From Acidobacteriaceae bacterium (GTDB taxonomy: Bacteria > Acidobacteriota > Terriglobia > Terriglobales > Acidobacteriaceae): a stretch of 64,000 nucleotides of DNA. Each line of letters opens with the position of its first letter. Within the stretch, counting starts at the first letter, position 1. The stretch is from contig JAPWKE010000002.1 of the NCBI GenBank assembly GCA_028283655.1, forward strand, positions 164,501 to 228,500, written 5' to 3'. The notes below the pieces were generated by a model. The model saw only the letters and a list, made by a program, of their open reading frames with translations, had not been told where the DNA came from and searched no databases. The position numbers were made by a program, and so were the translations under genes. Shown piece after piece: positions 38,409-60,149 of the stretch.

Positions 38409-40851
38409 ATGTTTGCCCCTGCTGTTCCGCTTCTCTTTCTCCTTCTCGGAGGCTCCCCTCTTGCTGCTTCTGCTGTTCCCGCTCCTGGCACGCCCCGCGC
38501 TCACTTGAGCGGCTTTGTCAGTGATGCCTCTGGTGCTGGCGTTCCCAACGCCGCCATCACCCTTGAAACCCAGGACGGCCAAAACGTCGCCGCCACCGTC
38601 TCCGACGCAACCGGCCACTATCGGCTTGAGTTCACCGTCCGCGCCGGAGTTCACTACAGCGAGCGCGTCATCGCAAAGGGCTTCCACACCTCCGTGCAGC
38701 AGGACGTTCCGCTTCTCGAAGGCGTAGATCGTGTCAACGACATTCATCTCAGCATCGGCTCCGCCTCGGAGACCGTCACCGTAACCCCTACGGAGTCCAA
38801 GGGCAACGGCGAGCTCGGCACCGTCGCGCAGGCAGGCATCCTCGGCACCCTCAGCCTCGACGAGATGCCGTACTCTGCCACCAGCTATACCTCGCAGATC
38901 GTCCTCGACCAGCAGGCCCAGACCGTCTCCGACGTCCTCCGCAACGAGGTCGGCATTCAGGAAGGCAACGGCCGCTACTCTGAGAACCAGTACCTCACCC
39001 TCCGCGGCTTCACCCTCGAAGTTGGCCAGGCGCTGTACAACGGCATCCCCGGCCTCGTCGACGCGCGCAGCCCGTCGATTGAAAACATCGACCGCTTCGA
39101 AATCTTCAAGGGCCCCAGCTCCTTCCTCAACGGGGCCAGTCCCTACGGCGCTCCCGGCGGCACCGTCAACATGGTCACCAAGCGTGCCGGCGAGCAGCCG
39201 TACTACCGCTTCGACGGCGGCTACTCCTCAAACAGCGAGAAGGAAGGTCACATCGACCTCGGCCGCCGCTTCTTCGCCAACAACGCTCTCGGCGTCCGCG
39301 TCACTCTCGGCGGCCGCGCAGGCAACACGCCCATCGACAACCAGGCAGAGAACGTCGCCGACGGCGCCATCGGCCTCGACTACCGTGGTAAGAAGTGGCA
39401 CGGCAGCTTCGACCTCAGTGATGAAGCCCGCAGCATGTTGGGCTCGCGCGACGCCATCTACTTTGACTACGTCACAGGCAACGTCCCCCAGGCTCCCAAG
39501 CTGACGTAACAACATCTTCGACCACTCTTCGACCTACACGCACCACCAGCTTTCTCTGCTGGCCAAGGGCGACTACAGCCTCACCGACAACGTGCAGATC
39601 TTCGGCGCCTATGGCTATGCGCACGGCATCGAGTCCTACACCGGTCCCGGCCTCAGCTACCTCGAAAACGAGCAGGGCGACGCCACCGTCTACAACCTGC
39701 CCGACACCTCAGACATGCACACCAGCGTCGGTCGCGTCGGCGCCCACATCACTGCAAAGACCGGCCCCGTCCGCAACGAGATCACCGTCAACGGCGATTA
39801 TCTGCAGATCCTCGCTGGCTACTTTTACGAGTACGGCGACTCGTACAGCACGAACATCTACCACCCCATCGCGCTCACGCCGCTTGTTCCCAAGGTCGCT
39901 GGCCTCAAGAACATCCCCAACACCAACCTCAACCGTCTTTCGAGCGTCGCGATCGCAGACGTTGCCACCGCCTTCAACGGCAAGCTCATCGTCATCGGCG
40001 GCGTGCGTGGGCAGTGGGTCGGGGAGAAGGAGTACTTCTCCGAGATCGATCGCGGATCCAACAACACTCCCGTCGGCGTAGCCTGCACGGAAAACTGCAG
40101 CTACAACAAGGGCGTCGCCAGCCCGTCCATCGCAGCCATGTACCACCTGCCCAAGGGCTTCTCGGTCTACGGCAACTTCATGCAGGACCTCCAGCAAGGG
40201 CCCACCGCTCCCGATGGATCGGCCAACCAGAGCCAGGTCTTCGCTCCCTACGTCGCTAAGCAGGAGGAGGTCGGAGCCAAGTACGAGCACGGCTCGCTGC
40301 TCGCCACCGCCGCCCTCTTCCAGATCACCGAACCCAACGGCGTCCTCAACCCCACGACGAACCTCTACGCCGTAAACGGTGACCAGCGCAATCGTGGCCT
40401 CGAGCTCGAAGTCTCCGGCAACATCGTGCCCAGCATCCGTGTGAACGGCGGCATCAGCTTCATCGACGCCCGCCAGAGGAACACCGGCGTCACCTTCGAG
40501 AACGACTCCAACGACACCGGCGGTACCGACGGCAAGCGCGCCCAGGGCATCCCCGGAACGCAGAGCAACCTCAACGTCGAGTGGACCGTCCCGAAGCTCC
40601 GTTCGCTCAACCTCGACGCTCGCGTCGTGGCCTCCAACGGCCAGTGGGGCGATACCGCCGAGCAGCTCCGCATCCCCGCCTGGGCACGCCTCGACATTGG
40701 CGGACGCTATCAGATCAAGACGAAGTATCCTATCGATCTTCGTGTGAACATCGACAACGTCACCGGCAACAACTACTACGAGTCCGGCCTGCTCGGTCTT
40801 AGCCTCGGCGCTCCTCGCGCCCTGCGCATCTCCTCCGGCATCCACTTCTAA
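38409..40851 (+). pseudogene. TonB-dependent siderophore receptor, single-base frameshift
   Basis: The frame from ATG 38409 encodes a signal peptide, a carboxypeptidase-regulatory-like domain (residues 30-115), a plug domain (VSDVLRNEVGIQEGNGRYSE, then GFTLEVGQALYNGIPGL) and the start of the barrel. It stops at TAA 39507 after 366 residues. The next frame continues without a gap from 39505 (NNIFDHSSTYTHH) to the C-terminal aromatic ALRISSGIHF at 40849. Deleting one base in ACGTAAC (39504-39510) gives a full receptor of about 813 residues. GGAGGT lies about 10 nt before the ATG. It is followed by the PepSY gene, with an operator palindrome upstream. Confidence 0.85.
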
Positions 40852-43391: not shown

Positions 43392-44021
43392 CTATTTTAG
43401 AAGTCTCTCCAAGCCATCCCAACCGCTCCGAACTGGTTGCCGCTTCCTTGGATCGTCGAGACCTAGTTCTTCGATGGTGAACTCCATTCGTCCGAAGTTA
43501 CAAGGGGCGCAGGCGACGACTACATTCTCAAGGTCATTGCTTCCACCACGGGCGTGAGGAAGGACATGATCGAATTGAGCCCACATTGCCTGAAACGCCG
43601 CATGCTGAGATTGGTTTGTCCGTCCCCACGGGAGCGCCTGCGGGTATTGCTTGTGCATAAGGTTTCGAATCTCGGCTCTGATCACGGGAACACCGCAGAA
43701 GCGGCAGCGATGACAGTCACGCTTGAGAAGTCTTAGCTTTTCCGCGAGTACGGGCATTCGCACCTGTACGCGAAGCTCTTTGGATAAGATGTTTGGTGCG
43801 TCCTCGACCACGCGCAACAATCGATATGGACTTACTTTGCCCCATAAGGACTCAGTCCAATCTCGCAGTTCAGGCATATCAGCCCGAATGAGCAATCTTG
43901 CCGCCTCCTCGCCTTTGCCAGATAAGTGAGCGTCGGCCGCATCATTGAGGTACTCCGCTGCAATAGCGATCTCTGGAATCGGCGTTCGCATACATGGGCG
44001 AGTTGATCCGAGGATTTCCAT
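43392..44021 (-). CDS. HNH endonuclease
   Basis: 209 residues. The C-terminal HNH motif reads CRFCGVP (zinc cysteines), FDHVLPHARGGSNDLENVV and CAPCNFGRM, so both the His-Asn-His core and the structural CxxC pairs are intact. The N-terminal half, about 100 residues, is helical and unassigned. Composition is less GC-rich than the neighbours, and C- or G-ending codons are less dominant, suggesting a transferred gene. TAAAAT ends 6 nt before the ATG, which would make the mRNA leaderless. A phage or mobile-element origin is possible but no such gene adjoins. Confidence 0.82.
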   Translation of the reverse strand: MEILGSTRPCMRTPIPEIAIAAEYLNDAADAHLSGKGEEAARLLIRADMPELRDWTESLWGKVSPYRLLRVVEDAPNILSKELRVQVRMPVLAEKLRLLKRDCHRCRFCGVPVIRAEIRNLMHKQYPQALPWGRTNQSQHAAFQAMWAQFDHVLPHARGGSNDLENVVVACAPCNFGRMEFTIEELGLDDPRKRQPVRSGWDGLERLLK

Positions 44022-44170: not shown

Positions 44171-45181
44171 TTACTCCAACCCCACAAACGCAGCCCACGT
44201 CGCATCCTCCACGGCTACACCCTCTGCCATCGCTTCCTTACGCAACCGCAGCGTGCTCTCTCCGGGATACCTCGGCCGCTCACCTTCGCGCAAAGGCCGC
44301 GCGCCATGCAGTGCCTCGACCGCCCGCGTCGCAATCGCATCCATCTCGGCAAACGCCCCCACCGCCTGCGGAGCAATCGCCAGAAACACCTGCGACAGCC
44401 CCGTCTCCTGCAACGCCTCGGGCGCAACCTCGGCCGTAAGTCGTCCGCCTGAAAGCATCGCCGCCAGAGCGTCCAGCACGAAGCTCAACCCCGAACCCTT
44501 CCACAACCCAATCGGCAACGCACGATACGTCGCCTCAATCGCCGCCGGGTCTGTCGTCAACTCACCCTCCGCATCCCAGCCGCCGGGGAAAGGCAGTGGC
44601 TCGCCGCGCTGCCGATACTTCGCCAGCGTCCCATACGAAAACTGGCTCATCGCAAAATCCAGCACCAGGTGCTCGCCGTTCGAGCGCGGCGCCGCCATCA
44701 CCAGCGGATTGTTCCCCAGCGTCGGCTCCGAACTGCCCCACGCAGGCAGATTCGGCATCGTGTTCGTCCAGCACATCGACGCGCATCCCGCATCCGCCGC
44801 CTGCCAGCCATAGCTCCCCGCCCGCATCCAGTGCGTCGTGTCGGCCAGCGCCACCAGCCCCAGCCCATGCTCCTTGGCCAACTCGCACGCCCGGGCCATC
44901 GCGGCGTAGGCTGCCAGATTTCCCGGCCCGCGATGGCCGCGCCACCGCTCCAGTGCGCCAAAGCTCGCCACACGCTCCGGCACCGCGTCCAGCGCCACCG
45001 CGCCGTTGCGACACATCTCCAGAAAACGGGGCAGTCGCGCAATGCCATGCGTGCGCACGCCGTCGCGGTCAGCCTCTGCCGTCAGCCGGGCGCTCAACTC
45101 CGCGCGGCTGGCTTCCATCCCTGCTTTTTGAAGCACTGCGGCCACGCGCGTTTGTAATTCTGCGAAAGTGATTTTCACCAT
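44171..45181 (-). CDS. Ldh/malate-type NAD(P)H oxidoreductase (YiaK-like)
   Basis: 336 residues of the Ldh_2 family, which includes ureidoglycolate dehydrogenase, 2,3-diketo-L-gulonate reductase and delta-1-piperideine-2-carboxylate reductase. Hallmarks are DRDGVRTHGIARLPRFLEMC, the substrate/cofactor LADTTHWMRAGSYGWQAAD, MPNLPAWGSSEPTLGNNPLV, VLDFAMSQFSYG and WKGSGLSFVLDALAAMLSGG. The exact substrate cannot be told from sequence. It is divergent from the phosphoesterase gene with overlapping promoters. Confidence 0.88.
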   Translation of the reverse strand: MVKITFAELQTRVAAVLQKAGMEASRAELSARLTAEADRDGVRTHGIARLPRFLEMCRNGAVALDAVPERVASFGALERWRGHRGPGNLAAYAAMARACELAKEHGLGLVALADTTHWMRAGSYGWQAADAGCASMCWTNTMPNLPAWGSSEPTLGNNPLVMAAPRSNGEHLVLDFAMSQFSYGTLAKYRQRGEPLPFPGGWDAEGELTTDPAAIEATYRALPIGLWKGSGLSFVLDALAAMLSGGRLTAEVAPEALQETGLSQVFLAIAPQAVGAFAEMDAIATRAVEALHGARPLREGERPRYPGESTLRLRKEAMAEGVAVEDATWAAFVGLE

Positions 45182-45189: not shown

Positions 45190-45214
45190 AGAGTACGCCC
45201 GGCCGTTCTACAGT
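45190..45214. promoter_or_regulatory. Overlapping divergent -10 boxes of Ldh-type and phosphoesterase genes
   Basis: On the minus strand TACTCT (45195-45190) ends 8 nt before ATG 45181. On the plus strand TACAGT (45209-45214) ends 8 nt before ATG 45223. Each -10 lies where the other promoter's -35 would be, so the two promoters should exclude each other. Confidence 0.45.
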
Positions 45215-45222
45215 GGTTGTTC

Positions 45223-46626
45223 ATGCAATTTCGCCGCCTCCCCCTGCTGCTAACGTTGCTCTGCTCGCTGCTGGTCGCTGCCCACGCGCAAAGCGTACCC
45301 GTGCTCATGCTCTCGGACATCCACCTCGACCCCTTCCGCGACCCTGCGAAGTTCGCCGCGCTCTCCACTTCGCCCGCCACCGCATGGCCGAAGATCCTCA
45401 ACGCGCCCGATAGTGTCACCCAGGCCGCTGACTTCGAGAAGCTCACCACCACGTGCCCTTCGCGCGGGCTCGACACCGACTGGCCGCTGCTTGAGGCCTC
45501 GCTCAAAGCCTCGCATCAGCAGATACCGCACCCGGCCTTCATCACCGTCAGCGGCGACCTCATGGCCCACGTCTTCGACTGCCGCTATCGCGCCCTCGGC
45601 GGCAAACCGGAGCTGTATCCGGCCTTCGCTGCGAAGACCGTCGCCGTGGTTGCCGCAGAGTTGAAGCGCACCTTCCCGAAGACCCCGATCTATGTCGCGC
45701 TCGGCAACAACGACTCCGGCTGCGGAGACTACCGCGAGGATGCTGGCAGCAAATTTCTCGTTGCAAACTCCACGACGCTCGCCGACCTGACGCGCTCGAA
45801 CAAGCGCAAAATTGCGACCGAATCGTCCCGTCTTGGCGACTGGAGTGTGACTCTTCCTGAACCGTTTCAAAACGCTCGATTACTCGTTTTGCAGGACATG
45901 TTTGAGCTGAAAAATGGCGTCGGATGTGACGGAAAGCGTGATTTTCACGCCGAAGAGGAGCAGATTTCCTGGCTGCGCGAGCAGCTTGAAAGCGTTCAAA
46001 AGCACCACCAGCAGGCCTGGGTCATGGCCCACGTCCCCCCCGGCGTGGACTCTTACGCCACCCTTTCTCACGGTATCGACGTCTGCTCCGGCAAGCCGCC
46101 GATCATGTTCACGGCCAACGACGAACTCGCGAAAACACTGGTTGAATACGCCGATGTCGTACGACTCGCGCTCTTCGCCCACACCCATATGGACGAGATG
46201 CATGTGATCGGCCACGGCGACCACACCGTCGCTATCCGCATGGTGCCGTCGATTTCACCGGTAAACGGCAATCACCCCGCGTTTACAGTGTCAGAGGTCG
46301 ATCCGAAGAGCTTCACGCTGCGTGACTGGACCGTGTACGTTGCGCCAAATAAGAACGGAACAGGTGTGTGGAGCGAGGAGTATCGCTTCTCGCAGACGTA
46401 TCATGAGCCCGCATTTGACGCGGTTTCCGCACGCAAGCTGCTCGATGGCTTCCGCGCCGACAAGGGCAGCGAGGCCGCGAGCACGCAGGCCTACGAGCAC
46501 AACTTCTTTGCCGGCGACAGCGGCAAGTTCGCGCTGGTGATGCGCTTCGGCTGGCCGATGTACTCATGCGCCGCGAACGCGACGACGGCGGATGAGTACA
46601 AGAGTTGCGTGTGCCCCGCGAAGTAA
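45223..46626 (+). CDS. Secreted metallophosphoesterase (sphingomyelinase-like)
   Basis: 467 residues with a signal peptide (LLLTLLCSLLVAAHAQS). Calcineurin-like metal-site motifs appear in order: LSDIHLDP, SGDLMAH, ALGNNDSG, MAHVPPG and FAHTHMDEM. The C-terminal Cys-rich end (CAANATTADEYKSCVC) resembles acid sphingomyelinase-like phosphodiesterases. It is probably exported to the periplasm to cleave phosphodiester or phosphomonoester lipids or nucleotides. ATG 45223 is preferred to TTG 45217. Strand composition changes within its 3' half. Confidence 0.85.
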   Translation: MQFRRLPLLLTLLCSLLVAAHAQSVPVLMLSDIHLDPFRDPAKFAALSTSPATAWPKILNAPDSVTQAADFEKLTTTCPSRGLDTDWPLLEASLKASHQQIPHPAFITVSGDLMAHVFDCRYRALGGKPELYPAFAAKTVAVVAAELKRTFPKTPIYVALGNNDSGCGDYREDAGSKFLVANSTTLADLTRSNKRKIATESSRLGDWSVTLPEPFQNARLLVLQDMFELKNGVGCDGKRDFHAEEEQISWLREQLESVQKHHQQAWVMAHVPPGVDSYATLSHGIDVCSGKPPIMFTANDELAKTLVEYADVVRLALFAHTHMDEMHVIGHGDHTVAIRMVPSISPVNGNHPAFTVSEVDPKSFTLRDWTVYVAPNKNGTGVWSEEYRFSQTYHEPAFDAVSARKLLDGFRADKGSEAASTQAYEHNFFAGDSGKFALVMRFGWPMYSCAANATTADEYKSCVCPAK

Positions 46627-46629
46627 CGC

Positions 46630-47139
46630 TTAGCGTTGTGTGAGCGCGCGCAGAAGCTCTGGCTCCTGCGGCCAGCGGGCGATGAGCTCGTCGTAGGCTC
46701 CGCTGCTGTAGTCCTCGAACTCAAAGCCGGGTGAGACGGTGCAGCCGAGCAGGGCGAAGGCGTTCGGCTGCGCGGGACGCAGCAGATGCGAGCCCTGCCA
46801 GACGCCGCGCGGCACAACGAGTTGTGGCTGTTCGCCGTGTTCGATGTCTTTGCCGATGAGGTGGCGCGTGCTGTTGCCGTTGGGATGAAGCTGCAGCATC
46901 TCGACCGGCGAGCCGAGGTAGTGGTGGAAGATCTCGTCGCTTTCGAGCATGTGCATCTCGCTGAAGGTGTCTGGTTCCAGCAGATAGAAGATAGCTGTGC
47001 TGGTGAAGCGCGGGCCGGGGTAGCGGTCAAGTGTGATGTGCTCGGCGCTTTCGTAGGTGCGGTGAAACCATCCGCCTTCGCGGGGGTGTGGCTTCAAGCC
47101 GAGCAGTTCTTTGACGCGGGCTGCAGTGAGTTCGCTCAT
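46630..47139 (-). CDS. DUF985-family cupin
   Basis: 169 residues. The family signature is seen in LKPHPREGGWFHRTYES, FTSTAIFYLLEPDTFSEMH, LESDEIFHHYLGSPVEML and VPRGVWQGSHL, and an all-beta cupin barrel is expected. The fold is like yeast YML079w, whose function is unknown. Its 3' end lies 3 bp from that of the converging phosphoesterase gene. No Shine-Dalgarno is obvious. Confidence 0.88.
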   Translation of the reverse strand: MSELTAARVKELLGLKPHPREGGWFHRTYESAEHITLDRYPGPRFTSTAIFYLLEPDTFSEMHMLESDEIFHHYLGSPVEMLQLHPNGNSTRHLIGKDIEHGEQPQLVVPRGVWQGSHLLRPAQPNAFALLGCTVSPGFEFEDYSSGAYDELIARWPQEPELLRALTQR

Positions 47140-47175
47140 TCACGTTATTCTGAAACGAATTAACCAGAGCAGCAA

Positions 47176-48516
47176 ATGAACCGTTGTGAAGGAGTGTCCG
47201 CCACAGACATGCGCAGCCGCCTCGAACGCTATTTTCAATTTGCCGAAGTTGGCGCCACATGGCGCACCGAGGTGCTGGCTGGTGTGACGACGTTTGTCAC
47301 CATGGCGTACATCATCTTTGTCAACCCATCGATCCTGGCACAGACCGGGATGCCGCTGGCCGCGGTGACGACGGCGACGTGTTTGTGCGCGGCGTTTGGC
47401 TCGATCATGATGGGTGCGCTGGCGAATTATCCGCTGGCTCTGGCCCCGGGCATGGGGTTGAATGCGTACTTCACCTACACGGTGGTGAAGGGGATGGGCG
47501 TTCCGTGGCAGACCGCGTTGGGCGCGGTCTTTTTGTCGGGCGTTATCTTTCTGCTGCTGACGTTTGGCGGCATTCGCCAGCGGCTGGTCGCGGCGATTCC
47601 GCACCAGCTTCACGCGGCTGTGGCGGGCGGCATCGGGTTGTTCATTGCGTTTATCGGGCTGCGTGAGTCGGGCATCATTGTGCCGAATGCTGCGACGACG
47701 GTGACGCTGGGCAACATGCACTCCCCGTCCGTTCTGCTGGCGCTCTTTGGCATTGCGTTGATCGCGGTGCTGGAAGCGTACAAGGTGAAGGCGTCGATGC
47801 TGATTGGCGTGCTGGGCACGATGCTGGCAGGCATTCTGTGCGGGCAGATGCACTGGCATCCGAGCACGCTGAACCCGATGGCGATCCGGCAGACGGCGTT
47901 TCATCTCGACATTCGCGGCGCGCTGCATATGAACGCGTTGGAGATCATCTTTGTGTTCCTGTTTGTCGACCTCTTCGACAACATTGGCACGCTGGTCGCC
48001 GTGACGGAGCGTGCGGGGCTGATCGCGGAAGACCATACGATTCCGCGGCTGGACAAGATCTTCCTGGCGGATGCGACGTCGACGGTGGTGGGTTCGCTGG
48101 CAGGAACGTCGACGGTGACGAGCTATATCGAAAGCTCGGCGGGGGTGGCTGCGGGGGGGCGAACGGGTGTGACGGCGATCGTGACAGGTCTGCTGTTTTT
48201 TGCCGCGCTGTTTGTCGCTCCGCTGGTGGGTGCGTTGCCGGACTTTGCAACGGCCCCGGCGTTGATTCTTGTGGGCGCGCTGATGGTGGCGGGTGTGGCG
48301 CGGATTGACTGGCATGAGCCGCGGGTGGCGATTCCGGCGTTCCTCACGCTGATCATGGTGCCGCTGACGTATTCGATTGCAACCGGGTTGAGCTTTGGCA
48401 TCATCAGCTTTGCGGTGCTGGAGATTGCGATGGGGCGTGCGCGGAAGCAGCATTGGATGCTGTATTTGCTGGCGTTGCTGTTCATTGCACGGTTTGTGTG
48501 GCTGCACGCAGGGTAG
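47176..48516 (+). CDS. NCS2/AzgA family nucleobase permease
   Basis: 446 residues, about 13 membrane helices. The FVNPSILAQTGMP start, ALAPGMGLNAYFTYTVV, the PHQLHAAVAGGIGLFIAF region and VDLFDNIGTLVAVTERAGL are the hallmarks of the AzgA/PbuG adenine/guanine/hypoxanthine permeases, coupled to protons. No purine metabolism genes adjoin it. ATG 47176 is used; ATG 47209 is possible, with AAGGAG upstream but 14 nt away. Codons end mostly in G, unlike genes left of 46 kb. Confidence 0.92.
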   Translation: MNRCEGVSATDMRSRLERYFQFAEVGATWRTEVLAGVTTFVTMAYIIFVNPSILAQTGMPLAAVTTATCLCAAFGSIMMGALANYPLALAPGMGLNAYFTYTVVKGMGVPWQTALGAVFLSGVIFLLLTFGGIRQRLVAAIPHQLHAAVAGGIGLFIAFIGLRESGIIVPNAATTVTLGNMHSPSVLLALFGIALIAVLEAYKVKASMLIGVLGTMLAGILCGQMHWHPSTLNPMAIRQTAFHLDIRGALHMNALEIIFVFLFVDLFDNIGTLVAVTERAGLIAEDHTIPRLDKIFLADATSTVVGSLAGTSTVTSYIESSAGVAAGGRTGVTAIVTGLLFFAALFVAPLVGALPDFATAPALILVGALMVAGVARIDWHEPRVAIPAFLTLIMVPLTYSIATGLSFGIISFAVLEIAMGRARKQHWMLYLLALLFIARFVWLHAG

Positions 48517-48519
48517 AGA

Positions 48520-48581
48520 GCCGGGGCTAAAGCCCCTTTTTGCCTGTGCCTTGACGGTGGGCTGAAGCCCACCTCTACTCC
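48520..48581 (-). repeat. Composite repeat, copy I, in opposite orientation
   Basis: GCCGGGGCTAAAGCCCC, a spacer, and CGGTGGGCTGAAGCCCACC followed by TCTACTCC, the exact reverse complement form of the left-side copies. It starts 3 bp beyond the permease stop codon. The rest of the gap up to 48754 shows no gene. Confidence 0.85.
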
Positions 48582-48754
48582 AAAGGCAAAGGCTAAGTGC
48601 GCGAAGGGGATTGGGGCAAGCTGTGCGGTGGCGGTTTGGCAGGGAACCTGATGTTCACTTGGAACGTCGGAGCTGGGTTTAGCATCTCAGTCCATAGGCG
48701 AGTCTGCATGGTGCGGGTTCTGCCATGTTTTCGAAAGTTAAACAGGAGAGTGTG

Positions 48755-49180
48755 ATGGATCGCAGCGCATCGGCAGTTTGGACGGGAAGCCTGAAGGAAG
48801 GCAAGGGTTCGATCAGCATGCAGAGTGGCACGCTGAAGGACGCACAGTACAGCTTCAAGACACGTTTTGAAGACGGCGTGGGAACGAACCCGGAAGAGTT
48901 AATTGCAGCCGCTCATGCAGGCTGTTTCACGATGGCGTTGAGTGCGCAGTTGACCTCAGCCGAGCATGTGCCGGATGAGTTGAGCACGACCGCTACCGTC
49001 ACGATGGAGACGACCGAAGACGGTCCGACCGTGACGAAGATTCACCTCGTGACCAAGGCCAAGGTGCCGAACATCGACAAGGAAAAGTTCGACGAGCTGG
49101 CGAAGAAGGCGAAGGAAGGTTGCCCGATTTCGCGGTTGTTGAAGGCGGCGGAGATCTCGCTGGATGCGACGCTGGTGTAA
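48755..49180 (+). CDS. OsmC-family peroxiredoxin
   Basis: 141 residues. It reduces organic hydroperoxides with two cysteines, seen in AAAHAGCFTMALS and KEGCPISRLL, flanked by GVGTNPEELIAAAHAG. It is the OsmC/Ohr fold, probably closer to the OsmC branch. ATG 48755 (MDRSASAVW) is preferred to ATG 48725 because AGGAGAGTG precedes it. It ends at a strong terminator. Confidence 0.93.
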   Translation: MDRSASAVWTGSLKEGKGSISMQSGTLKDAQYSFKTRFEDGVGTNPEELIAAAHAGCFTMALSAQLTSAEHVPDELSTTATVTMETTEDGPTVTKIHLVTKAKVPNIDKEKFDELAKKAKEGCPISRLLKAAEISLDATLV

Positions 49181-49195
49181 GTAAGTTGTAGATGG

Positions 49196-49226
49196 AAAAG
49201 GCCCGCCTTCAAGGCGGGCCTTTTTT
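49196..49226. terminator. Terminator after OsmC, bidirectional
   Basis: GGCCCGCCTT/AAGGCGGGCC stem with A and T runs on both sides; T6 follows on the plus strand. It stands between the OsmC gene and the minus-strand oxidoreductase. Confidence 0.85.
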
Positions 49227-49260
49227 GTTTGAACGCGAAGTGTGCGGCTAATGTGTGTGG

Positions 49261-49932
49261 CTAAGGCTTGGCCAGGGAGTTGAGGTCGGGGACTTCGAGC
49301 ACCTGCTTGCCGTAGCCTTCCTGGGCGATGCGGATCATGGCGCGGCCGATCTGCGAGAGGGTGCTGACGCTGCTGGGCAGGACGAGCCGGAAGACAGGGT
49401 AGAGCGTGCCGATGATCTTCATCATGCCGGGTACAAAGCGCTGGTGAGGCGAGGGGCGCATGGCTCCAGGGCGCAGGTTGTATGCCGCGCGAAAGGGAAG
49501 GCGTGTGAGCGCGTTTTCGGTGCGGCCTTTGACGCGTGCCCACATGCTGCGGCCCTGCTCGGTGGGGTCGGTGTGCGCGCCGGAGACGTACTCGAAGACC
49601 ATCTGCGGGTTCAGGCGGGCGAGGGTTTCGGCGAAGTGCAGCGTGGTGTCGTAGGTGATGCGGGTGTACTCGGCTTCCTTCATGCCTACGGACGATATTC
49701 CGGAGCAGAAGAAGCAGGCGTCGTAGCCTGCGAGCTGCTCTTCGACGTCGTCGAGCGAGAGGAAGCTGGGGACGATGAGTTCTTTGAGCTTGGCGTGGGT
49801 GTAGCCGGAGGAGCGGCGGACGACGCTGAGGACACGGCTGACGTTGGGGCTGGCGAGGCATTCGAGCAGCACGCCTTCACCGACCATGCCGGTGGTGCCT
49901 GTCAGGATGACGCTGATCGGTTGTTGGCTCAT
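49261..49932 (-). CDS. NAD(P)-binding short-chain/epimerase-type protein (HTATIP2-like)
   Basis: 223 residues. An N-terminal Rossmann motif VILTGTTGMVGEGVLLECL precedes VVRRSSGYTHAKLKE and GYDACFFCSGISSVGM. The single catalytic-like Tyr and Lys lie in YVSGAHTDPTEQGRSMWARVKGRTE, read in two parts, an atypical SDR with no known substrate. Similar Acidobacterial proteins are annotated as NAD-dependent epimerases. It is upstream of nothing on its strand except the terminator; the CDF gene is 37 bp upstream of it on the same strand. Confidence 0.75.
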   Translation of the reverse strand: MSQQPISVILTGTTGMVGEGVLLECLASPNVSRVLSVVRRSSGYTHAKLKELIVPSFLSLDDVEEQLAGYDACFFCSGISSVGMKEAEYTRITYDTTLHFAETLARLNPQMVFEYVSGAHTDPTEQGRSMWARVKGRTENALTRLPFRAAYNLRPGAMRPSPHQRFVPGMMKIIGTLYPVFRLVLPSSVSTLSQIGRAMIRIAQEGYGKQVLEVPDLNSLAKP

Positions 49933-49969
49933 GCGGTTTTAGATGCAGACAGAGAGGCGCCGGTGCTGG

Positions 49970-50944
49970 TTAATGCGCGTGGGCGTGATCGTGGCCGCCG
50001 GGGCCGTGGTGGTGGTGCGAGTGGCCGTCGACGACTTCGGGGAGCGGCGGCTGGCAGCAGTCTTCGGCGGTGGCGGAGCAGTCGAAGACCTCGAGCTGAA
50101 TCGTCGTGTGGTAGATGCCGTGATGGTCGCGAAGCTCGTGGTTTAGCTTGTCGAGGATCTGCTGGGTGCTGGCGAGCGGCATCTCGATGACGCGGACGTG
50201 CGCGGCGAGAGCGTGGCTCTTGGAGGTGAGGCTCCAGACGTGCAGGTCATGCACGCTGACGACGCCGGGAACCTTCTTCATGGCGGTGCGAAGCTCGTCG
50301 AGGTTGACGGAGCGCGGTGTGCCTTCGAGGAGGATGTGCAGCGATTCGCGGATGATCGACCAGGAGCTGAGGACGATCATGGCGGCGATGATGAGCGAGA
50401 GGACGGGGTCGATCCACTGCCAGCCGGTGAAGCGGATGGCGAGGCCGCCGAGGATGACGGCGGCGGTGGAGATGGTGTCGCCGAGCATGTGCAGGAAGAC
50501 GGAGCGGATGTTGATGTCGCCGGAGAACTTCCAGAGCAGGGTGGCGATGATGCCGTTCATCAGCACACCGGCGGCGGCGACGTACATCATGAGGTCGGCC
50601 TGCACGGTGACGGGGTGCGCAAAGCGGCGGAGGGCTTCGAAGGCGATCCAGAGGGAGAGCAGGAGCAGGGAGAGTGCGTTGAGGAAGCCGGCGAGGACTC
50701 CGGCGCGCTGGTAGCCGAAGGTGCGGGCGTCGCTGGCGGGGCGGGTCTGGAGCCAGACGGCGGCGAAGCTGAGCGCGAGCGCAAGGAAGTCGGAGACGTT
50801 GTGTCCGGCCTCGGAGATGAGCGCGAGAGAGTGCGCGCGCATGCCGTAAAAGAACGTCGCGAGGACGTAGAGCAGCGTGAGCGCGAGCGAGAATTTGAGG
50901 ATGCGCTGGACGGGGGAGGGCGCGGCTTTTACGGAAGACGCCAT
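49970..50944 (-). CDS. Cation diffusion facilitator (CzcD/ZitB-like zinc exporter)
   Basis: 324 residues with six membrane helices. Metal-site motifs are ALISEAGHNVSDFLALAL (with H-x3-D) and FLHMLGDTISTAAVILGG. The cytoplasmic domain ends in a His-rich tail (HSHHHHGPGGHDHAHAH) that can bind Zn, Co or Cd. It exports divalent metals in exchange for protons. The ATG lies exactly 6 nt after TACACT, so the mRNA is probably leaderless. Confidence 0.93.
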   Translation of the reverse strand: MASSVKAAPSPVQRILKFSLALTLLYVLATFFYGMRAHSLALISEAGHNVSDFLALALSFAAVWLQTRPASDARTFGYQRAGVLAGFLNALSLLLLSLWIAFEALRRFAHPVTVQADLMMYVAAAGVLMNGIIATLLWKFSGDINIRSVFLHMLGDTISTAAVILGGLAIRFTGWQWIDPVLSLIIAAMIVLSSWSIIRESLHILLEGTPRSVNLDELRTAMKKVPGVVSVHDLHVWSLTSKSHALAAHVRVIEMPLASTQQILDKLNHELRDHHGIYHTTIQLEVFDCSATAEDCCQPPLPEVVDGHSHHHHGPGGHDHAHAH

Positions 50945-50950
50945 ACTCTT

Positions 50951-50956
50951 AGTGTA
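50951..50956 (-). promoter_or_regulatory. -10-like box of the CDF gene
   Basis: TACACT, then AAGAGT, then ATG. The 6-nt gap puts the expected transcription start on the ATG itself. Confidence 0.5.
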
Positions 50957-51011
50957 CGCTCGCCGTGGTCGCAGGCGGATGCATCTGAAGGGAACAGAGT
51001 GAGGGGTGGCG

Positions 51012-51731
51012 ATGAAGGTTACGCAGATTTCTGCTTATGGGTTTCAGCTGACTAAGTTCGGGCTGGTGAACAGTTACCTGGTGCGCGAAAGCGATGACTG
51101 GACGCTGATTGATACGAACCTGGGCGGGAGTGAGAACGACATTCTGCAGGCGGCGCGGAGCGTGGGCGCAAAGTCGATTGCGCGGATTCTGCTAACCCAC
51201 GCGCATGTGGACCATGTGGGGTCGACCGACCAGTTGATTCTGAAGCTGGGGGCGGTGCATCTGGCGGTGGGGAGGCGCGAGGCGAGGATGCTGCCGAAGC
51301 CGCCGGATCAGGATTTGTCGCTGGACCCAGACGAGCCGCAGTGCCCGATGAAGGGTGGATTTCCGGGGATCGAGTCGAGCCCGACGCATTTTTTGAGTGG
51401 CGGCGAGCTGTATGGTTCGTTGCGGTGCGTCGCGACGCCGGGACATACGACGGGTCACATGAGCTATCTGGATGAGCGCGATGGAACGCTGTATGCCGGG
51501 GATGCGATTGGGACGCTGCGCGGGCGGACGACGGTGAGCGGGTGGGCTCCGTGGTGGTTTCCGGTGCGGGCGACGTGGCACCGGCCGACGGCGCTGGAGT
51601 CGGTGAAGGCGCTGGCGGAGCTGCCGGTGAAGACGCTGGCTGCAGGGCACGGTCGGCTGGTGGAGAACGGTGCGGAAGGGCTGCGGGAGGCCGTGAGGGC
51701 GGCGGAGGCGAAGCCTGTCGGCGGGTGTTGA
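51012..51731 (+). CDS. Metallo-beta-lactamase-fold hydrolase
   Basis: 239 residues. Metal ligands lie in LLTHAHVDHVGS (HxHxDH), GHTTGHMSYL and LYAGDAIGTLRG, with a final GHG in TLAAGHGRLV, so both zinc sites are intact. The N-terminus resembles the YcbL/glyoxalase II-like group. The substrate is unknown. ATG 51012 has GAGGGG 5 nt upstream, and the in-frame GTG 51006 overlaps that site. It is 6 bp from the stop of the convergent Rieske gene. Confidence 0.88.
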   Translation: MKVTQISAYGFQLTKFGLVNSYLVRESDDWTLIDTNLGGSENDILQAARSVGAKSIARILLTHAHVDHVGSTDQLILKLGAVHLAVGRREARMLPKPPDQDLSLDPDEPQCPMKGGFPGIESSPTHFLSGGELYGSLRCVATPGHTTGHMSYLDERDGTLYAGDAIGTLRGRTTVSGWAPWWFPVRATWHRPTALESVKALAELPVKTLAAGHGRLVENGAEGLREAVRAAEAKPVGGC

Positions 51732-51737
51732 GGACGG

Positions 51738-52892
51738 TTAGCTGCGCCAGTGGAGTTCGACGGGGCCGGGCAGCGGATGCTCGCCGGTTCCTTTCAGGCG
51801 GCGTTGCTTGAGGGCGAAGTACCACTTGGCGGGTTTGTCGGCGTCGTCGATCAGCATGAGCGCGGGGTTGGAGCGGAGGCCGCGGGCTTGCTCGACCATC
51901 GTCTGCTGATCCTGCTGGACGAAGCGTTTGCCGAAGTGGAGGGCGATGGGCTTCACAAAGGGCAGGTGGTAGGCGATGTCCCAGGCCGCGAGGACGTCGA
52001 TGCGGCAGGTGCTGGCGGTGACCGGTGTGACCGTTGTCAGCGAGGTGAACCAGCGGACCTTGCCGTTCTTTTCGGCCTTGATGGTTTCGTAGCGGCGGTT
52101 GGGCAGCACGAAGTCGATGGTGGTGGTGGGTTTGCCGATCAGCTTATAGGGCGCGGAGTTGGAGCTGGGCGTGTGGGGGCTCATGCGGAAGCCTGCGTTT
52201 CGCCCGCCGTTCTCGAGGTCTTCCAAAGGCTCGTAGAGCTTGGTCTTTTCGTGGATGCTGGCGGCGCTGCGCCACCACCAGGCGCGGTGGACGAAGGGGC
52301 CATGGGCCGGGTCCATGAGGCCGATGATGCCGTGATCGACGTTGCAGGGCAGGTCGGCGGTGATGTGCGCGGAGCGGTAGCGGCTGGAGAATTTGGGGAG
52401 TTCGGGGATCGGGGGCAGGGAGGATTCGGCGGTGAGGCGGCCTGCTCCGGCTTCGGGGACGTAGACCCAGGCGTAGCCGTCCTGCTCGACGATGGGGAAG
52501 CTGTTGGCGAAGATTTTGGAGGGCTCGAGGGCGTCGTGCGAGGTGAGCGAGGGGATCTCTTCGCAGCGGCCGGTGCAGGGTTCGAAGCGCCAGCCGTGGT
52601 ACTTGCACTGCACGGTTTCGCCGTCGAACCAACCGGCTGACAACGGGATGCCGCGGTGGGGGCAGAGGTCGCGCAGGGCGAAGAGAGTGCCGTCGTTTTT
52701 GCGGCCGACGAGCATGGGGATGCCGAGCAGGGTGGTGAGCGCGGTCTTGCCGCGTTTGATCGGGGCTGAGCGCAGGGCGGGGTACCACTCGCCGAAGATC
52801 ATGTCGGCGGGCGGGCCGGGTTTGGCCGCAGAGGTGATCTCGACCAGCGGGCTGGTGTGGTCGGCGGCGCGGATGGGGCTCATGCGAGGCAT
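51738..52892 (-). CDS. Rieske [2Fe-2S] aromatic ring-hydroxylating or demethylating oxygenase
   Basis: 384 residues. The N-terminal Rieske domain has CPHRGIPLS and CKYHGWRF (Cys-x-His and Cys-x2-His ligands). The catalytic domain has the mononuclear-iron pattern NVDHGIIGLMDPAHGPFVH, with His and Asp ligands. It is most like pheophorbide-a-oxygenase/vanillate-demethylase-like proteins, and it needs a reductase that is not in view. ATG 52892 is set because TAGACT ends 8 nt upstream, and GT39 is divergent from the same gap. Confidence 0.87.
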   Translation of the reverse strand: MPRMSPIRAADHTSPLVEITSAAKPGPPADMIFGEWYPALRSAPIKRGKTALTTLLGIPMLVGRKNDGTLFALRDLCPHRGIPLSAGWFDGETVQCKYHGWRFEPCTGRCEEIPSLTSHDALEPSKIFANSFPIVEQDGYAWVYVPEAGAGRLTAESSLPPIPELPKFSSRYRSAHITADLPCNVDHGIIGLMDPAHGPFVHRAWWWRSAASIHEKTKLYEPLEDLENGGRNAGFRMSPHTPSSNSAPYKLIGKPTTTIDFVLPNRRYETIKAEKNGKVRWFTSLTTVTPVTASTCRIDVLAAWDIAYHLPFVKPIALHFGKRFVQQDQQTMVEQARGLRSNPALMLIDDADKPAKWYFALKQRRLKGTGEHPLPGPVELHWRS

Positions 52893-52900
52893 CGAGGATG

Positions 52901-52906
52901 AGTCTA
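52901..52906 (-). promoter_or_regulatory. -10-like box of the Rieske gene
   Basis: TAGACT 8 nt before ATG 52892; it supports this start codon over the upstream frame. Confidence 0.4.
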
Positions 52907-52950
52907 ACGGATGCGCTGGTTTGTGGGAGTGATGCGGGGCACAAGGCATC

Positions 52951-52956
52951 TACACT
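52951..52956 (+). promoter_or_regulatory. -10-like box of the GT39 gene
   Basis: TACACT 9 nt before ATG 52966, in the same GGCATCTACACTGG context as the dnaG promoter. Confidence 0.45.
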
Positions 52957-52965
52957 GGGAGCCGA

Positions 52966-54876
52966 ATGTCTTCTCTGCCGAAACGATCCCGTTCGACGAC
53001 GCTGGCCTTTGTGCTGGTGTGGGTGGTTGTCTATGCGAGCTTTGCGTTGTGGTGGCCAGCGCTGCTGGATGACGCGGACTCGGTGCACTCCGAGGTGGCG
53101 CGCGAGATGCTGCTGCGGCATGACTGGGTGACGCTGTATGCGAACGGCATACGGTACCTGGAAAAGGCCCCGCTGATGTACTGGCTGATGGCGGTGGCGA
53201 TGAAGGTCGCCGGGCTGCTGGGGGCTACGTCGCCACGGGCGATGGCTGCGGCGGCGAGGGTGCCGATTGCGGCGAGCGCGCTGGGGTTGGCGTTTGCGGT
53301 GGAGGCGTTTGCGCGGCGGGTGTATGCGAGCGCGCGGGCGGGTTTGAACGCCGGATTGATCGTGCTGTCGAGCGCGGGAGTGTTCCTGTTCACGCGCATC
53401 ACGCTGCCCGATGCGTTTGTCTGCCTGTGGATGGCGCTGGCGATGTATGCGCTGCTGCGGATGGAAGAGAGCGATGACGCCCGGTGGTTCGATGGTGTCC
53501 TGTTCGGCGTGGCGTGTGCGCTGGGCGTGTTGTCGAAGGGGCTGATCGGGCTGGTGTTTCCGGCAGCGGTCGCGGCCCTGTATCTGCTGCTGGCGTATGG
53601 CTGGCGCGGTGGATGGCGGCGGCTGGGCGCGCTGCCGTGGGGCGTGGCGCTGGTGAGTCTGCTGGTGGTGGCTGCGCCGTGGCATGTGCTGGCGGGGATG
53701 GCGAACCCGACGGTGGGGCAACCGACACCGTTTCGGTTTGTGAACGGGCATTGGAAGGTGCCGCTGCCGACGGATGGCAATGTGCGCGGGTGGTACTGGT
53801 TCTACTTCATGAACGAGCATGTGCTGCGCTACTTGAACCTGCGCGTGCCGCATGACTATGACACGTCGCCGCTGTGGCTGTTCTGGGGGCTGTGCTTTGT
53901 GTGGATCATGCCGTGGTCGGCGTTTGTGTTCAAGGCTGTGGGGGCGGCGTTGCCGGTGCGAACGGCGGCGTGGCGAGCGCGTTTTCAGGCGCGGCAGTTG
54001 AGCCTGAGCGAGCGCGGGCAGATGCTGGCGGTGGTGTGGGCCGCGGTGGTGCTGGGGTTCTTCACGCTGTCGACGAGGCAGGAGTATTACGTGTTGCCTG
54101 CGTTGCCTGCGCTGGCGGTGATGATCGCCGGTTGGCTGGCGGTAGAGAGCGAGGCGCGTCGCAGGAGCGCGGTGCGATGCGTGGCCGTTGTGGCCGTTCT
54201 GGGTGGGCTGTTTGCGATGGGCAGTGTGTACTTTCTGCTGCATACGCGGAGGCCTGCGCCGAACACGGACCTGGCCAGCCTACTGGCGACGAACCCCGGG
54301 GATTATGCGCTGTCGATGGGGCACTTCCTTGACCTGAACGCGCAGGCACTGGGGTTGTTTCGTGTGCCTCTGGCGCTGGCTGCGGTGAGCCTGTTTGGTG
54401 GACCGTTGTTGGCGCTGCTCTGGCTGCGGCGGTCGCGTGTGCCTGCGGCGGTGCTGGCGCTGACGGTGGGCGCGTGTGGGTTTCTGGTGGCCGCGCATCT
54501 GGGGCTGCAGACGTTTGCGCCGGTGCTGAGTTCGGCGCAGCTAGCGGAGCAGATTGCGCCGCAGGTTCACGCGGGCGATCTGGTGATGATTCACGGAGAG
54601 TATGAGGCGGGCTCGACGCTGGGGTTCTATCTGCGGCGGAATGATGTGCACATTCTCGAAGGGCGCAGTTCGAACCTTTGGTATGGAAGCTTCTTTCCGG
54701 ATGCGCCGAAGATCTTCGAGACGCCTGCGAGCGTGGCGGCGAAGTGGAGCGGGTCGCAGAGGATTCTTATGTGGCAGAGTTTGACCGATCCGCCGAATCA
54801 CCTTCCGGTCGTCACGGGGCCGGTGTATGTTGTGGCTCGGGGTGGTGGGAAAGAGATTGTAAGCAACCAGCCGTAG
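52966..54876 (+). CDS. GT39 family polytopic glycosyltransferase (ArnT/PMT-like)
   Basis: 636 residues with about 12 membrane helices. The periplasmic loop DDADSVHSEVAREML carries the Asp and Glu that define the GT-C catalytic site; LEKAPLMYWLMAVAMKVAG follows, as in ArnT. The second half ends in a periplasmic domain (HAGDLVMIHGEYEAGSTLG). It transfers a sugar from a polyprenyl-phosphate donor to lipid or protein; the acceptor is unknown. Genes downstream include a DUF1003 protein and the HpnI-like glycosyltransferase, so a cell-envelope role is plausible. Confidence 0.88.
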   Translation: MSSLPKRSRSTTLAFVLVWVVVYASFALWWPALLDDADSVHSEVAREMLLRHDWVTLYANGIRYLEKAPLMYWLMAVAMKVAGLLGATSPRAMAAAARVPIAASALGLAFAVEAFARRVYASARAGLNAGLIVLSSAGVFLFTRITLPDAFVCLWMALAMYALLRMEESDDARWFDGVLFGVACALGVLSKGLIGLVFPAAVAALYLLLAYGWRGGWRRLGALPWGVALVSLLVVAAPWHVLAGMANPTVGQPTPFRFVNGHWKVPLPTDGNVRGWYWFYFMNEHVLRYLNLRVPHDYDTSPLWLFWGLCFVWIMPWSAFVFKAVGAALPVRTAAWRARFQARQLSLSERGQMLAVVWAAVVLGFFTLSTRQEYYVLPALPALAVMIAGWLAVESEARRRSAVRCVAVVAVLGGLFAMGSVYFLLHTRRPAPNTDLASLLATNPGDYALSMGHFLDLNAQALGLFRVPLALAAVSLFGGPLLALLWLRRSRVPAAVLALTVGACGFLVAAHLGLQTFAPVLSSAQLAEQIAPQVHAGDLVMIHGEYEAGSTLGFYLRRNDVHILEGRSSNLWYGSFFPDAPKIFETPASVAAKWSGSQRILMWQSLTDPPNHLPVVTGPVYVVARGGGKEIVSNQP

Positions 54877-54949
54877 TTGCCGCTATCTGCATCCCAGAGA
54901 ATAGGTGCGCCCCATAGAACTTGTATTTGAGAGAACGAGGAACTGACCC

Positions 54950-55810
54950 ATGTCCTGCAGTCAAGAAGAGCTTCGCCACGCCCCGTTGTTTTCGCTGCTT
55001 GATGACGATGAGATCGCTGTGCTGGCGGCGCAGGTCGAGGTGCGCGACTTCCCCGCGAACCAGCGCATTTACAAGGCTGGCGATGTGAGCGAACGGGCGT
55101 ACGTGATGCTCGAAGGCGCTGTGCGCGTGACGCTGATTGATGAAGATGGGCAGGAGGTGTTGTTCTCCGAGCCGAAGCATGGCGACGTCTTCGGCTTCGC
55201 TTCGATGCTGGAGTACACCGAGCACAAGACGACGGCGTATGCGGTGGCTGCGAGCCGGTGCATCGAGGTCGACCGCAACGATTTGTCGGTGCTGCTGCGC
55301 ACGAAGCCGATGGCCGGGATGGACATGCTGACGGTGCTGGCGCGGGAGATTCACCAGACGCAGCAGATCGTGCGGACAAGATCGGCGAAGAGCCCGAACG
55401 AACTTATCGACGAGAAGGAAACGTTCGGTGCGAGGATTGCGGACCGCGTGGCCGGTTTTGGCGGGTCGTGGACGTTCATCATCATGTTTCTGTCGGGGTT
55501 GGTGATCTATACGCTGATCAACATTGTGCTGGGGCACAAGGCGTGGGATCCGTACCCGTTCATCCTGCTGAACCTGTTCCTGTCGATGCTGGCGGCGATC
55601 CAGGCGCCGGTGATCATGATGAGTCAGAACCGGCAGGATGGAAAAGACAGGATGCGTTCGGAGCTGGACTTCCAGGTGAACCGGAGGGCCGAGGTGGAGG
55701 TGAAAGAGCTGGGACGACGGCTTCATTTCATTTCAGAACAGCTAGGTGATATCGAAGAACGCACTCGAGGTATGGGCAAGCCGCAGAGTGGTGGCGAGTT
55801 GGAGCCCTAG
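54950..55810 (+). CDS. Cyclic-nucleotide-binding plus DUF1003 membrane protein
   Basis: 286 residues. Residues 10-130 form a cNMP-binding domain (GDVSERAYVMLEGAVRVTL, then GDVFGFASMLEY). Residues 170-250 are the DUF1003 domain: FGGSWTFIIMFLSGLVIYTL, NPYPF-like DPYPFILLNLFLSMLAAIQ and APVIMMSQNRQ. A basic coiled tail follows. The cNMP domain lacks an obvious arginine in the phosphate-binding cassette, so it may be a degenerate or redox/lipid sensor. AGGAACTGA precedes the ATG. Confidence 0.88.
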   Translation: MSCSQEELRHAPLFSLLDDDEIAVLAAQVEVRDFPANQRIYKAGDVSERAYVMLEGAVRVTLIDEDGQEVLFSEPKHGDVFGFASMLEYTEHKTTAYAVAASRCIEVDRNDLSVLLRTKPMAGMDMLTVLAREIHQTQQIVRTRSAKSPNELIDEKETFGARIADRVAGFGGSWTFIIMFLSGLVIYTLINIVLGHKAWDPYPFILLNLFLSMLAAIQAPVIMMSQNRQDGKDRMRSELDFQVNRRAEVEVKELGRRLHFISEQLGDIEERTRGMGKPQSGGELEP

Positions 55811-55816
55811 ACCTTT

Positions 55817-55822
55817 TACACT
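55817..55822 (+). promoter_or_regulatory. -10-like box of the HpnI-like gene
   Basis: TACACT, then GTGGAC, then ATG 55829: a 6-nt gap as at the CDF gene. It favours the ATG over GTG 55823. Confidence 0.5.
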
Positions 55823-55828
55823 GTGGAC

Positions 55829-56998
55829 ATGGGTTCCCTGGAGTGGGTTGCGTTCGGAGCAGAGGCCTTTACCGGGCTGGTGACGATATCGGGTGTGGCT
55901 TATGGCGCGTTGGCTCTGTGGGGAGCGGGCGCTTACTCGCGAGATGTGCGAGCGTCGCGCGCTGGCGTGGCGTATGCGCCGCCGGTAACGATTCTGAAGC
56001 CGGTGAAGGGCGTTGACCCGCGGATGTATGCGGGGTTTGTGAGCCATTGCGTGCAGCAGTATGAGAACGCGTTCGAGATCGTTTTCGGCGTGAGCTCGCT
56101 GGAAGACCCGGCGGTGGCAGAGATCGCACGGCTGCGTGTGGAGCACCCCGAGGTGCCGATCCAGTTGATCGAATGCAGTGCTCGGCTGGGGGCGAGTGGC
56201 AAGGTTTCAAACCTGGTGCAGATGCTCCCCTATGCTCGCTATGAGCATGTGCTGGTGAACGATGCGGACATCGTGGTGGGGCCGCGATACCTGGCTGAGA
56301 CGATGCGCGGCTTTGGCGATGCGACGGTGGGGCTGGTGACGGCTCCTTATGTGGGCGTGGCCGAGGGTACGGTGTGGAGCAAGCTGGAGGCAATGGGGAT
56401 CAGCACGGACTTTATGCCAGGGGTGCTGACGGCGCGGAAGCTGGAGGGCGGCATCCGCTTCGGTCTGGGGTCTACGTTGGCGACGACGAAGACTGCGCTG
56501 GCGAGCATTGGCGGCTTTGAGGCGCTGCTGGACCAGCTTGCGGACGATTACGAGATGGGTGTGCGGCTGGCGGCGAAGGGCTATCGTGTGGAGCTTGCGG
56601 GCGAGGTGGTGGAGACGACGGTACCGGCGTATGGAATGCGCGGGTTTGTCGATCACCAACTGCGCTGGGCGCGGTCCACGCGGGATTCGCGGCGCGGTGG
56701 GTATGTCGGGCTGGGGGTGACGTATGTGCTGCCGTGGGCGGTGCTGGCGGTACTGGCCAGCGGGGGGGCGTTGTGGAGTCTCGCGCTGTTGAGCCTGGCG
56801 CTGTTTGTGCGGGTGACGGTGGCGCTGTCTGTCGGGGTGGGACTGTTGCGCGATACGCAGGTGTTGCGCGATCTGTGGCTGCTGCCGGTGCGGGATTTCT
56901 TCGGCTTGTTCCTGTGGGCGTGGAGTTATGCGGGCAACACGATTGTGTGGCGTGGGGAGCGGTTTCGGCTGCGGCGTGGAGTGTTGGAGAGGGTGTAG
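55829..56998 (+). CDS. HpnI-like ceramide-glucosyltransferase-type GT2 glycosyltransferase
   Basis: 389 residues. An N-terminal helix is followed by a GT21-type catalytic domain: PVTILKPVKGVDPRMYAG (D1), HVLVNDADIVVGPRYL (D2), DQLADDYEMGVRLAA (D3) and DHQLRWARSTR, the (Q/R)xxRW motif. Two or three C-terminal helices come next. In Acidobacteria this group includes the hopanoid-modifying HpnI, but no hpnJ/hpnK neighbours are in view, so the acceptor remains uncertain. Codon use favours G at the third position. Confidence 0.85.
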   Translation: MGSLEWVAFGAEAFTGLVTISGVAYGALALWGAGAYSRDVRASRAGVAYAPPVTILKPVKGVDPRMYAGFVSHCVQQYENAFEIVFGVSSLEDPAVAEIARLRVEHPEVPIQLIECSARLGASGKVSNLVQMLPYARYEHVLVNDADIVVGPRYLAETMRGFGDATVGLVTAPYVGVAEGTVWSKLEAMGISTDFMPGVLTARKLEGGIRFGLGSTLATTKTALASIGGFEALLDQLADDYEMGVRLAAKGYRVELAGEVVETTVPAYGMRGFVDHQLRWARSTRDSRRGGYVGLGVTYVLPWAVLAVLASGGALWSLALLSLALFVRVTVALSVGVGLLRDTQVLRDLWLLPVRDFFGLFLWAWSYAGNTIVWRGERFRLRRGVLERV

Positions 56999-57090
56999 GG
57001 GAGAGGGTGTAGGGCGTAGGGCCCAGAAGGCGGATTGTGAGCCGGGGTTTGCGTCCGGTGGGATGCCTGGGGTTTCTTGGGGGCGATTGA

Positions 57091-57115
57091 CGGTGGCCTG
57101 AAGGCCACCTCTACT
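57091..57115 (-). repeat. Composite repeat, copy J (partial), opposite orientation
   Basis: CGGTGGCCTGAAGGCCACC followed by TCTACT, the inverse of the left-side copies. The upstream part of the gap carries GGGTGTAGGG-type short repeats (56989-57017). No gene lies between 56999 and 57158. Confidence 0.75.
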
Positions 57116-57158
57116 TCGAGAGCGAGAGTCAGGTGTTGATTCTGGCTCGGGTTGTGGG

Positions 57159-58406: not shown

Positions 58407-58460
58407 AGGGGCACGGGTCCGGTGGGTGAGGAGGCTAGCGAGACATGAGACAGGAAGACA

Positions 58461-58922: not shown

Positions 58923-60149
<1,227 letters not shown>

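Follow-up and report, generated by a model that had tools for sequence, protein, structure and literature searches.

A sharp strand-composition switch as one of many candidate points of divergent DNA synthesis in a Granulicella-like acidobacterium

The 64,000-nucleotide stretch of DNA analyzed here (the window, C2:164,501-228,500) belongs to the genome of a Granulicella-like acidobacterium, and its plus strand changes abruptly from C-rich to G-rich at about 46.3 kb, inside a metallophosphatase gene. Our preferred reading, to which we assign a probability of roughly 55%, is that this switch is one of about ten or more chromosomal points from which strand-asymmetric DNA synthesis diverges both ways. 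Forks, or fork-like repair synthesis, would move outward from each sharp upward jump in GC skew; the jumps would be initiation points, and the gradual declines between them would reflect forks from neighboring points that meet at varying places. If synthesis diverges from many points, the skew should therefore take the form of a sawtooth. Judged from composition alone, the agent may be replication forks started at extra origins in part of the cells or, by an alternative route, forks produced by recombination-dependent restart at preferred sites.

The genome comprises 4,271,084 bases in five contigs. The sequence analyzed amounts to 2.01 Mb of contiguous DNA and consists of contigs C1 and C2, complete but for 50 bases of C2, together with part of C3. 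Unless another flank is named, a skew step is the difference between the mean GC skew of 6 kb and that of the next 6 kb.

The switch and its base signature

Cumulative GC skew in the window is lowest at 46,278, and the best two-segment change point lies at 46,286 (2-unit support interval 46,237-46,593; log-likelihood gain 485). Mean skew over 6 kb is -0.19 to the left and +0.24 to the right of ~46.3 kb, a step of 0.43, which is the largest in the 2.01 Mb. The switch that a preliminary description of this DNA had placed near 46 kb is thus real and very strong, and we agree with that description that its C-to-G direction is origin-like. At fourfold-degenerate sites of the plus strand, C stands at.61 and G at.19-.23 between 26 and 46.6 kb, as against G at.68-.69 and C at.15-.17 between 46.6 and 64 kb, in genes of either direction. 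This bears out the earlier statement that the two sides are C-rich and G-rich irrespective of gene direction. Because fourfold composition is alike for plus- and minus-strand genes, gene direction cannot explain the switch, and transcription was rejected as its cause.

Fourfold-site skew in consecutive pieces between 45,217 and 47,139 runs from -0.33 and -0.29 to +0.11 and +0.44. The transition spans the 3′ part of the metallophosphatase gene (45,217-46,626, plus strand; Pfam PF00149) and is complete in a convergent Cupin_5 (DUF985) gene 3 bp on (46,630-47,139, minus strand), which is G-rich on the plus strand with a skew of +0.19. The switch sits within a gene, and no intergenic origin region is present there. 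That gene is present in 25 of 41 genomes searched, our own included, and its named homologues come from Granulicella and other Acidobacteriaceae. It has full length in relatives, and in eight aligned metallophosphatases (again with our own) invariant residues extend to the last cysteines, so that the gene is intact.

To the left, a C-rich domain of the plus strand (8,001-46,236) grows stronger toward the switch and extends past the window (slope over C2:153-210 kb, r2 0.82); leftward, window skew fades to ~0 at 4-7 kb. To the right, a G-rich domain (46,594-64,000) decays over ~60 kb, also past the window (slope over C2:216-273 kb, r2 0.65).

The fourfold-site composition of the G-rich strand to the right of the jump (A.07, C.17-.18, G.65-.68, T.08-.11) is near that of an arm of Granulicella sp. 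L46 (A.07-.09, C.10-.11, G.71-.72, T.09-.11), and for this reason the local skew looks like the ordinary replication skew of the genus. Low-skew DNA of the same chromosome (C1:60-110 kb) has C at.38-.39 and G at.33-.40, and beside weaker jumps fourfold G is intermediate (.47-.63).

Steps and slopes along the chromosome

Upward steps above 0.20 were found at C2:27, 152 and 211 kb, at C1:173 and 338 kb, and at C3:68, 291, 630, 1,000 and 3,306 kb. Large steps show a clear asymmetry between up and down, and small steps a weak one. With 6 kb flanks, 13 up-steps and 1 down-step exceed 0.18, and 10 up-steps and no down-step exceed 0.20. The latter threshold gives 13 up and 2 down with 4 kb flanks and 7 up and 2 down with 10 kb flanks, and above 0.25 there are zero down-steps with any flank length. 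Fourfold sites behave similarly (23 up and 7 down above 0.4, and 8 up and 1 down above 0.6, with 6 kb flanks; 8 up and 0 down above 0.6 with 8 kb flanks), and on this measure the window's own step reaches 1.09. Between jumps the skew declines in a near-linear manner, with r2 of 0.54-0.88 in eight stretches picked by eye; over C1:273-336 kb, for example, it falls from +0.12 to -0.21 (r2 0.83). The sharp up-jumps and gradual declines that define a skew sawtooth of the N-domain type are therefore seen for large steps and not for small ones, and the resulting skew domains reach tens of kilobases.

Larger-scale averages were also obtained for C3, where mean skew is +0.065 between 0 and 1.185 Mb, -0.062 between 1.185 and 3.306 Mb (from 386 kb of samples) and +0.083 between 3.306 and 3.59 Mb (from 153 kb of samples); the sign changes near gyrA, at a distance of 58 kb from dnaA. 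These averages would be compatible with a main origin within the gyrA-dnaA segment, a terminus near 1.2 Mb and a superposed sawtooth.

The same data bear on the suggestion, made in the preliminary description, that the switch is a replication origin. Its origin-like direction stands, but a single origin is too simple, because sharp up-jumps of this kind are found at many sites. That the switch is the chromosome's one main origin would fit its rank as the largest up-step in the sequence analyzed and the decay of skew on both sides; nine further up-steps above 0.20, and the location of dnaA on C3, which has its own sign change near gyrA, make this highly improbable.

Two of the up-jumps adjoin inserts of low GC content. 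One (GC 0.48-0.51) lies directly downstream of glmS at C1:338 kb (stretch L107, C1:335001-354873, at ~3300-6900), and the gene after it carries a putative abortive-infection domain (putAbiC). The other (GC 0.46-0.50) lies beside gyrA on C3 (stretch L042, C3:3300001-3315000, at ~3700-6300), and no gene was called there. The L-numbers here and below label the stretches, our own or those of relatives, that were compared.

The locus and the skew pattern in relatives

In five relatives (L109, L114, L126, L131 and L156), genes for the Ldh_2 family dehydrogenase, the metallophosphatase, the cupin and the NCS2 permease occur in the same order and orientation as in the window; collinearity also takes in OsmC in four of the five and CDF in L109. 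The window's Ldh_2 gene (44,171-45,181, minus strand), on the C-rich side, adjoins the metallophosphatase in many relatives, as seen from gene order, and its NCS2-type permease gene (47,176-48,516, plus strand; PF00860; skew +0.17) lies on the G-rich side. Every gene scored in the five relatives is negative in skew, one locus being uniformly at about -0.25, and none of the loci has such a jump: 6 kb means to either side of the metallophosphatase end, which was set by hand from match starts, are -.23/-.24, -.26/-.27, -.04/+.02, -.13/-.10 and +.01/+.04. Six genes of L109 have skews of -.28, -.30, -.39, -.32, -.29 and -.22, compared with -.25, -.10, +.19, +.17, +.20 and +.29 in our genome. All five relatives carry 3.9-6.5 kb of extra sequence between the metallophosphatase and the cupin. 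As one gene of this segment (from L156) finds only a 40% relative elsewhere in our genome, it was probably lost here and not moved by inversion.

An inversion boundary, the alternative raised in the preliminary description, is unlikely at the switch, since gene order is unchanged across this point in the five collinear relatives without such a jump, the gene at the switch is intact and the rest of C2, as far as the contig end 78 kb beyond the switch, has no sharp down-step. In principle a recent double inversion could have taken place, given that G. paludicola has the cupin-to-MBL block, and Bryocella its cupin-NCS2-OsmC part, in inverted orientation (the inverted block is seen in L118 and L111). 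It should then have left a sharp down-step on the right, where the largest within this 288.6 kb contig is -0.12. More generally, the chromosome could be a mosaic of inversions and insertions with the switch as one boundary. Rearrangements are indeed common, as the inverted blocks attest, and some down-steps coincide with low-GC stretches (C3:700 kb). Random inversions, however, should yield equal numbers of up- and down-steps, whereas the large steps are nearly all upward, and smooth declines are not expected from inversions. Together with the collinear relatives that lack such a jump, this renders a mosaic improbable.

Misassembly or chimerism of the contig at the switch is scarcely credible. 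Although C2 is one of five contigs, the junction falls within an intact, conserved gene whose neighbors are collinear in relatives, jumps and slopes of this kind are seen again on C1 and C3 as well as in G. paludicola, and completeness of the genome is put at 99.83%, with 1.28% contamination.

In 200 kb of contig NZ_JAGSYC010000026.1 of G. paludicola DSM 22464, jumps occur at ~413, 449, 502 (metallophosphatase), 539 (gyrA) and 586 kb, with slopes between them. Steps above 0.18 number 5 up and 1 down with 6 kb flanks, and fourfold-site steps above 0.5 number 5 up and 0 down. The shared jump at the metallophosphatase is a selected coincidence, because the stretch was chosen for its jump there. 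The jump at gyrA, ~1 kb past the 3′ end of the gene in our genome and 1.6 kb past it in G. paludicola, is an unselected one. Granulicella sp. L46 presents an ordinary arm of one sign: over 200 kb (L259-L268), all 3 kb windows but one are negative, mostly at -0.2 to -0.4, and steps above 0.18 are balanced (3 up and 2 down). Its dnaA lies 70 kb beyond this stretch, and the coding-strand skew of its orthologues correlates with that in our genome at rho -0.47 (n=39). At the glmS jump (C1:338 kb), downstream minus upstream skew in glmS orientation is positive at 12 of 12 same-genus loci and at only 2 of 9 loci from other families. These counts, worked by hand with 1.5 kb flanks, include our own locus and drop the truncated L282, and several of the loci have no sign change; conservation of the glmS jump in the genus is suggestive only.

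Several results weigh against divergence from many points. For small steps, counts with 6 kb flanks are 19 up and 9 down above 0.15 (a tenth down-step reads 0.150) and, at fourfold sites above 0.3, 31 up and 23 down; the corresponding fourfold counts in G. paludicola are 6 and 5. The window contains six matches to the DnaA box (at most one mismatch) where 4.2 are expected, which is no excess, and no three boxes of five variants lie within 800 bp anywhere in our analyzed sequence. The preliminary description was correct in seeing neither a dnaA gene nor a DnaA-box cluster in the window; dnaA is on C3, not C2. Around the nine strongest jumps, no shared 8-10 bp k-mer exceeds the chance expectation of ~9,400-12,200 tests per length. 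Between our genome and G. paludicola, orthologues show no correlation in coding-strand skew (rho 0.07, n=47). A skew rise above 0.25 across the metallophosphatase occurs at 1 of 19 other same-genus loci, and in 60 of 80 metallophosphatase loci (at least 12 kb; 4 kb flanks) there are 4 up- and 12 down-steps above 0.15, 3 and 7 above 0.20, and 3 and 1 above 0.25. With this single same-genus locus and no up-step excess in the 60 loci, the window's jump was rejected as a genus-wide trait. Because the relatives' loci lack an up-step excess and orthologue skew is not shared, the sawtooth is a trait of some species rather than of the whole family, with most of its sites unconserved.

The missing DnaA-box cluster and the absence of a motif common to the jumps would also suit a different process, in which the jumps are hotspots of double-strand breakage and recombination and outward repair tracts, not fork initiation, leave strand-asymmetric mutations. 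Several relatives have a rearranged gene order on the right-hand side of the metallophosphatase, which agrees with such hotspots. So does the rise of GC content with absolute skew (Spearman 0.45 over 199 bins of 10 kb; from 0.584 at absolute skew below 0.05 to 0.611 at 0.2-0.3), which could also stem from biased gene conversion and which, in any case, argues that cytosine deamination alone is not the source of the skew. Against hotspots are the length of the domains, at tens of kilobases, and the resemblance of the fourfold composition to an ordinary arm of the genus, in which strong skew likewise goes with GC-rich fourfold sites. We consider the hotspot explanation unlikely, and forks diverging from many sites would be the simplest account of the composition. 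Loss of RNase HI or RecG, with constitutive R-loop replication as its result, was rejected as a route, as the genes are present: RNase_H scored above the cut-off in 7 of 7 genomes, and recG-like matches were found in all 7, with 2 above the curated cut-off.

Hairpin repeats, neighboring genes and known systems

Composite hairpin repeats in the window were followed as module 1 (GTAGAGGTGG...CCACC, at most 4 mismatches) and module 2 (GGGGCTTTAGCCCC, at most 1 mismatch), and their orientation was compared with the sign of local skew wherever the latter exceeded 0.05 in absolute value. Eight copies of module 1 lie on the plus strand of the C-rich domain (10,539-42,072; starts 10539, 20643, 23561, 25456, 28080, 30495, 32928 and 42050) and two on the minus strand of the G-rich domain (48,556-57,114; starts 48556 and 57092). 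Module 2 has seven plus-strand copies on the left and one minus-strand copy on the right. The reversal of repeat orientation at the switch, as first described, therefore stands; the count of at least ten copies to its left does not, module 1 having eight.

Orientation follows skew sign elsewhere too. In all the sequence analyzed, window included, module 1 has 16 copies, of which 15 exceed the skew limit and 14 of these are plus in C-rich or minus in G-rich DNA; module 2 has 13 copies, and all 12 above the limit agree, while the one below it (C3:1,080,433, skew -0.05) points the opposite way. Most copies are clustered together on C2 and are perhaps not independent of one another; on the other contigs, agreement is 3/3 for module 2 and 3/4 for module 1. 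When a 13-base piece of module 1 was reversed to serve as a composition control, it agreed in 16 of 149 cases. The forward 13-base piece with 2 mismatches, which yields mostly chance matches, agrees in 21 of 68 and has no link to skew. From these controls, base composition opposes the orientation seen. Elements of the IS200/IS605 type are described as inserting into the lagging-strand template (PMC6006769), and their strand-tied orientation resembles that of our repeats; as no transposase is linked to the latter, this is an analogy only.

An HNH endonuclease gene (43392-44021, minus strand) lies 2.3 kb to the left of the switch in a stretch of lower GC content (0.54-0.56) and near-zero skew, and is probably a recent insertion. 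It was set aside as a candidate break-maker, since a scan of 20 proteins from other jumps gave no match to a nuclease family (3 had no Pfam match). Further left, a TonB-dependent receptor (38409-40851, plus strand) appears as two successive open reading frames, plug and barrel, 83 bases apart, as in a split or broken gene, and a 7-base direct repeat, GCAGGAA, occurs in ~12 copies at 23392-23473. On the right, two adjoining MacB/FtsX-type permease genes (57159-60149, minus strand) share repeated stretches that are 76-86% alike, apparently through tandem duplication.

The site resembles an ordinary bacterial oriC in its sharp C-to-G switch with mirrored sides. It differs from a canonical DnaA-dependent origin in that there are many such points per chromosome, no DnaA-box cluster is present, dnaA is elsewhere and the switch lies inside a gene. 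Upward jumps with gradual declines between them, as in our genome, also make up the skew N-domains of the human genome, which are read as gradients of fork polarity. Human N-domains are spaced at megabases, in contrast to tens to about a hundred kilobases in this bacterium, and our skew is several times stronger. Among bacteria, multi-origin, DnaA-independent replication has been shown by experiment in the cyanobacteria Synechocystis PCC 6803 and Nostoc PCC 7120, whose skew profiles are called irregular and not fitting one origin and one terminus (PMC7198777). The likeness to our case is a bacterial chromosome whose GC skew misfits the one-origin, one-terminus scheme. The difference is that irregular skew is replaced here by a strong sawtooth, known from composition alone, with jumps placed to ~1 kb and dnaA intact. 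In the titles and abstract openings of the literature searched, no skew sawtooth was found described in a bacterium.

Tentatively, and as a possibility to which we give less than even odds, some Granulicella chromosomes may start replication at many discrete sites that lie tens of kilobases apart, with a few of them common to more than one species, through a mechanism independent of DnaA-box clusters, in what would be a bacterial counterpart of eukaryote-like multi-origin replication. If forks do diverge from the jumps, the one-origin rule would fail beyond the cyanobacteria, in a soil genus that can be cultured, and a local skew minimum would not identify oriC in this group. Candidate sites would already be placed to ~1 kb, and close species with and without the pattern would be available for finding its cause.

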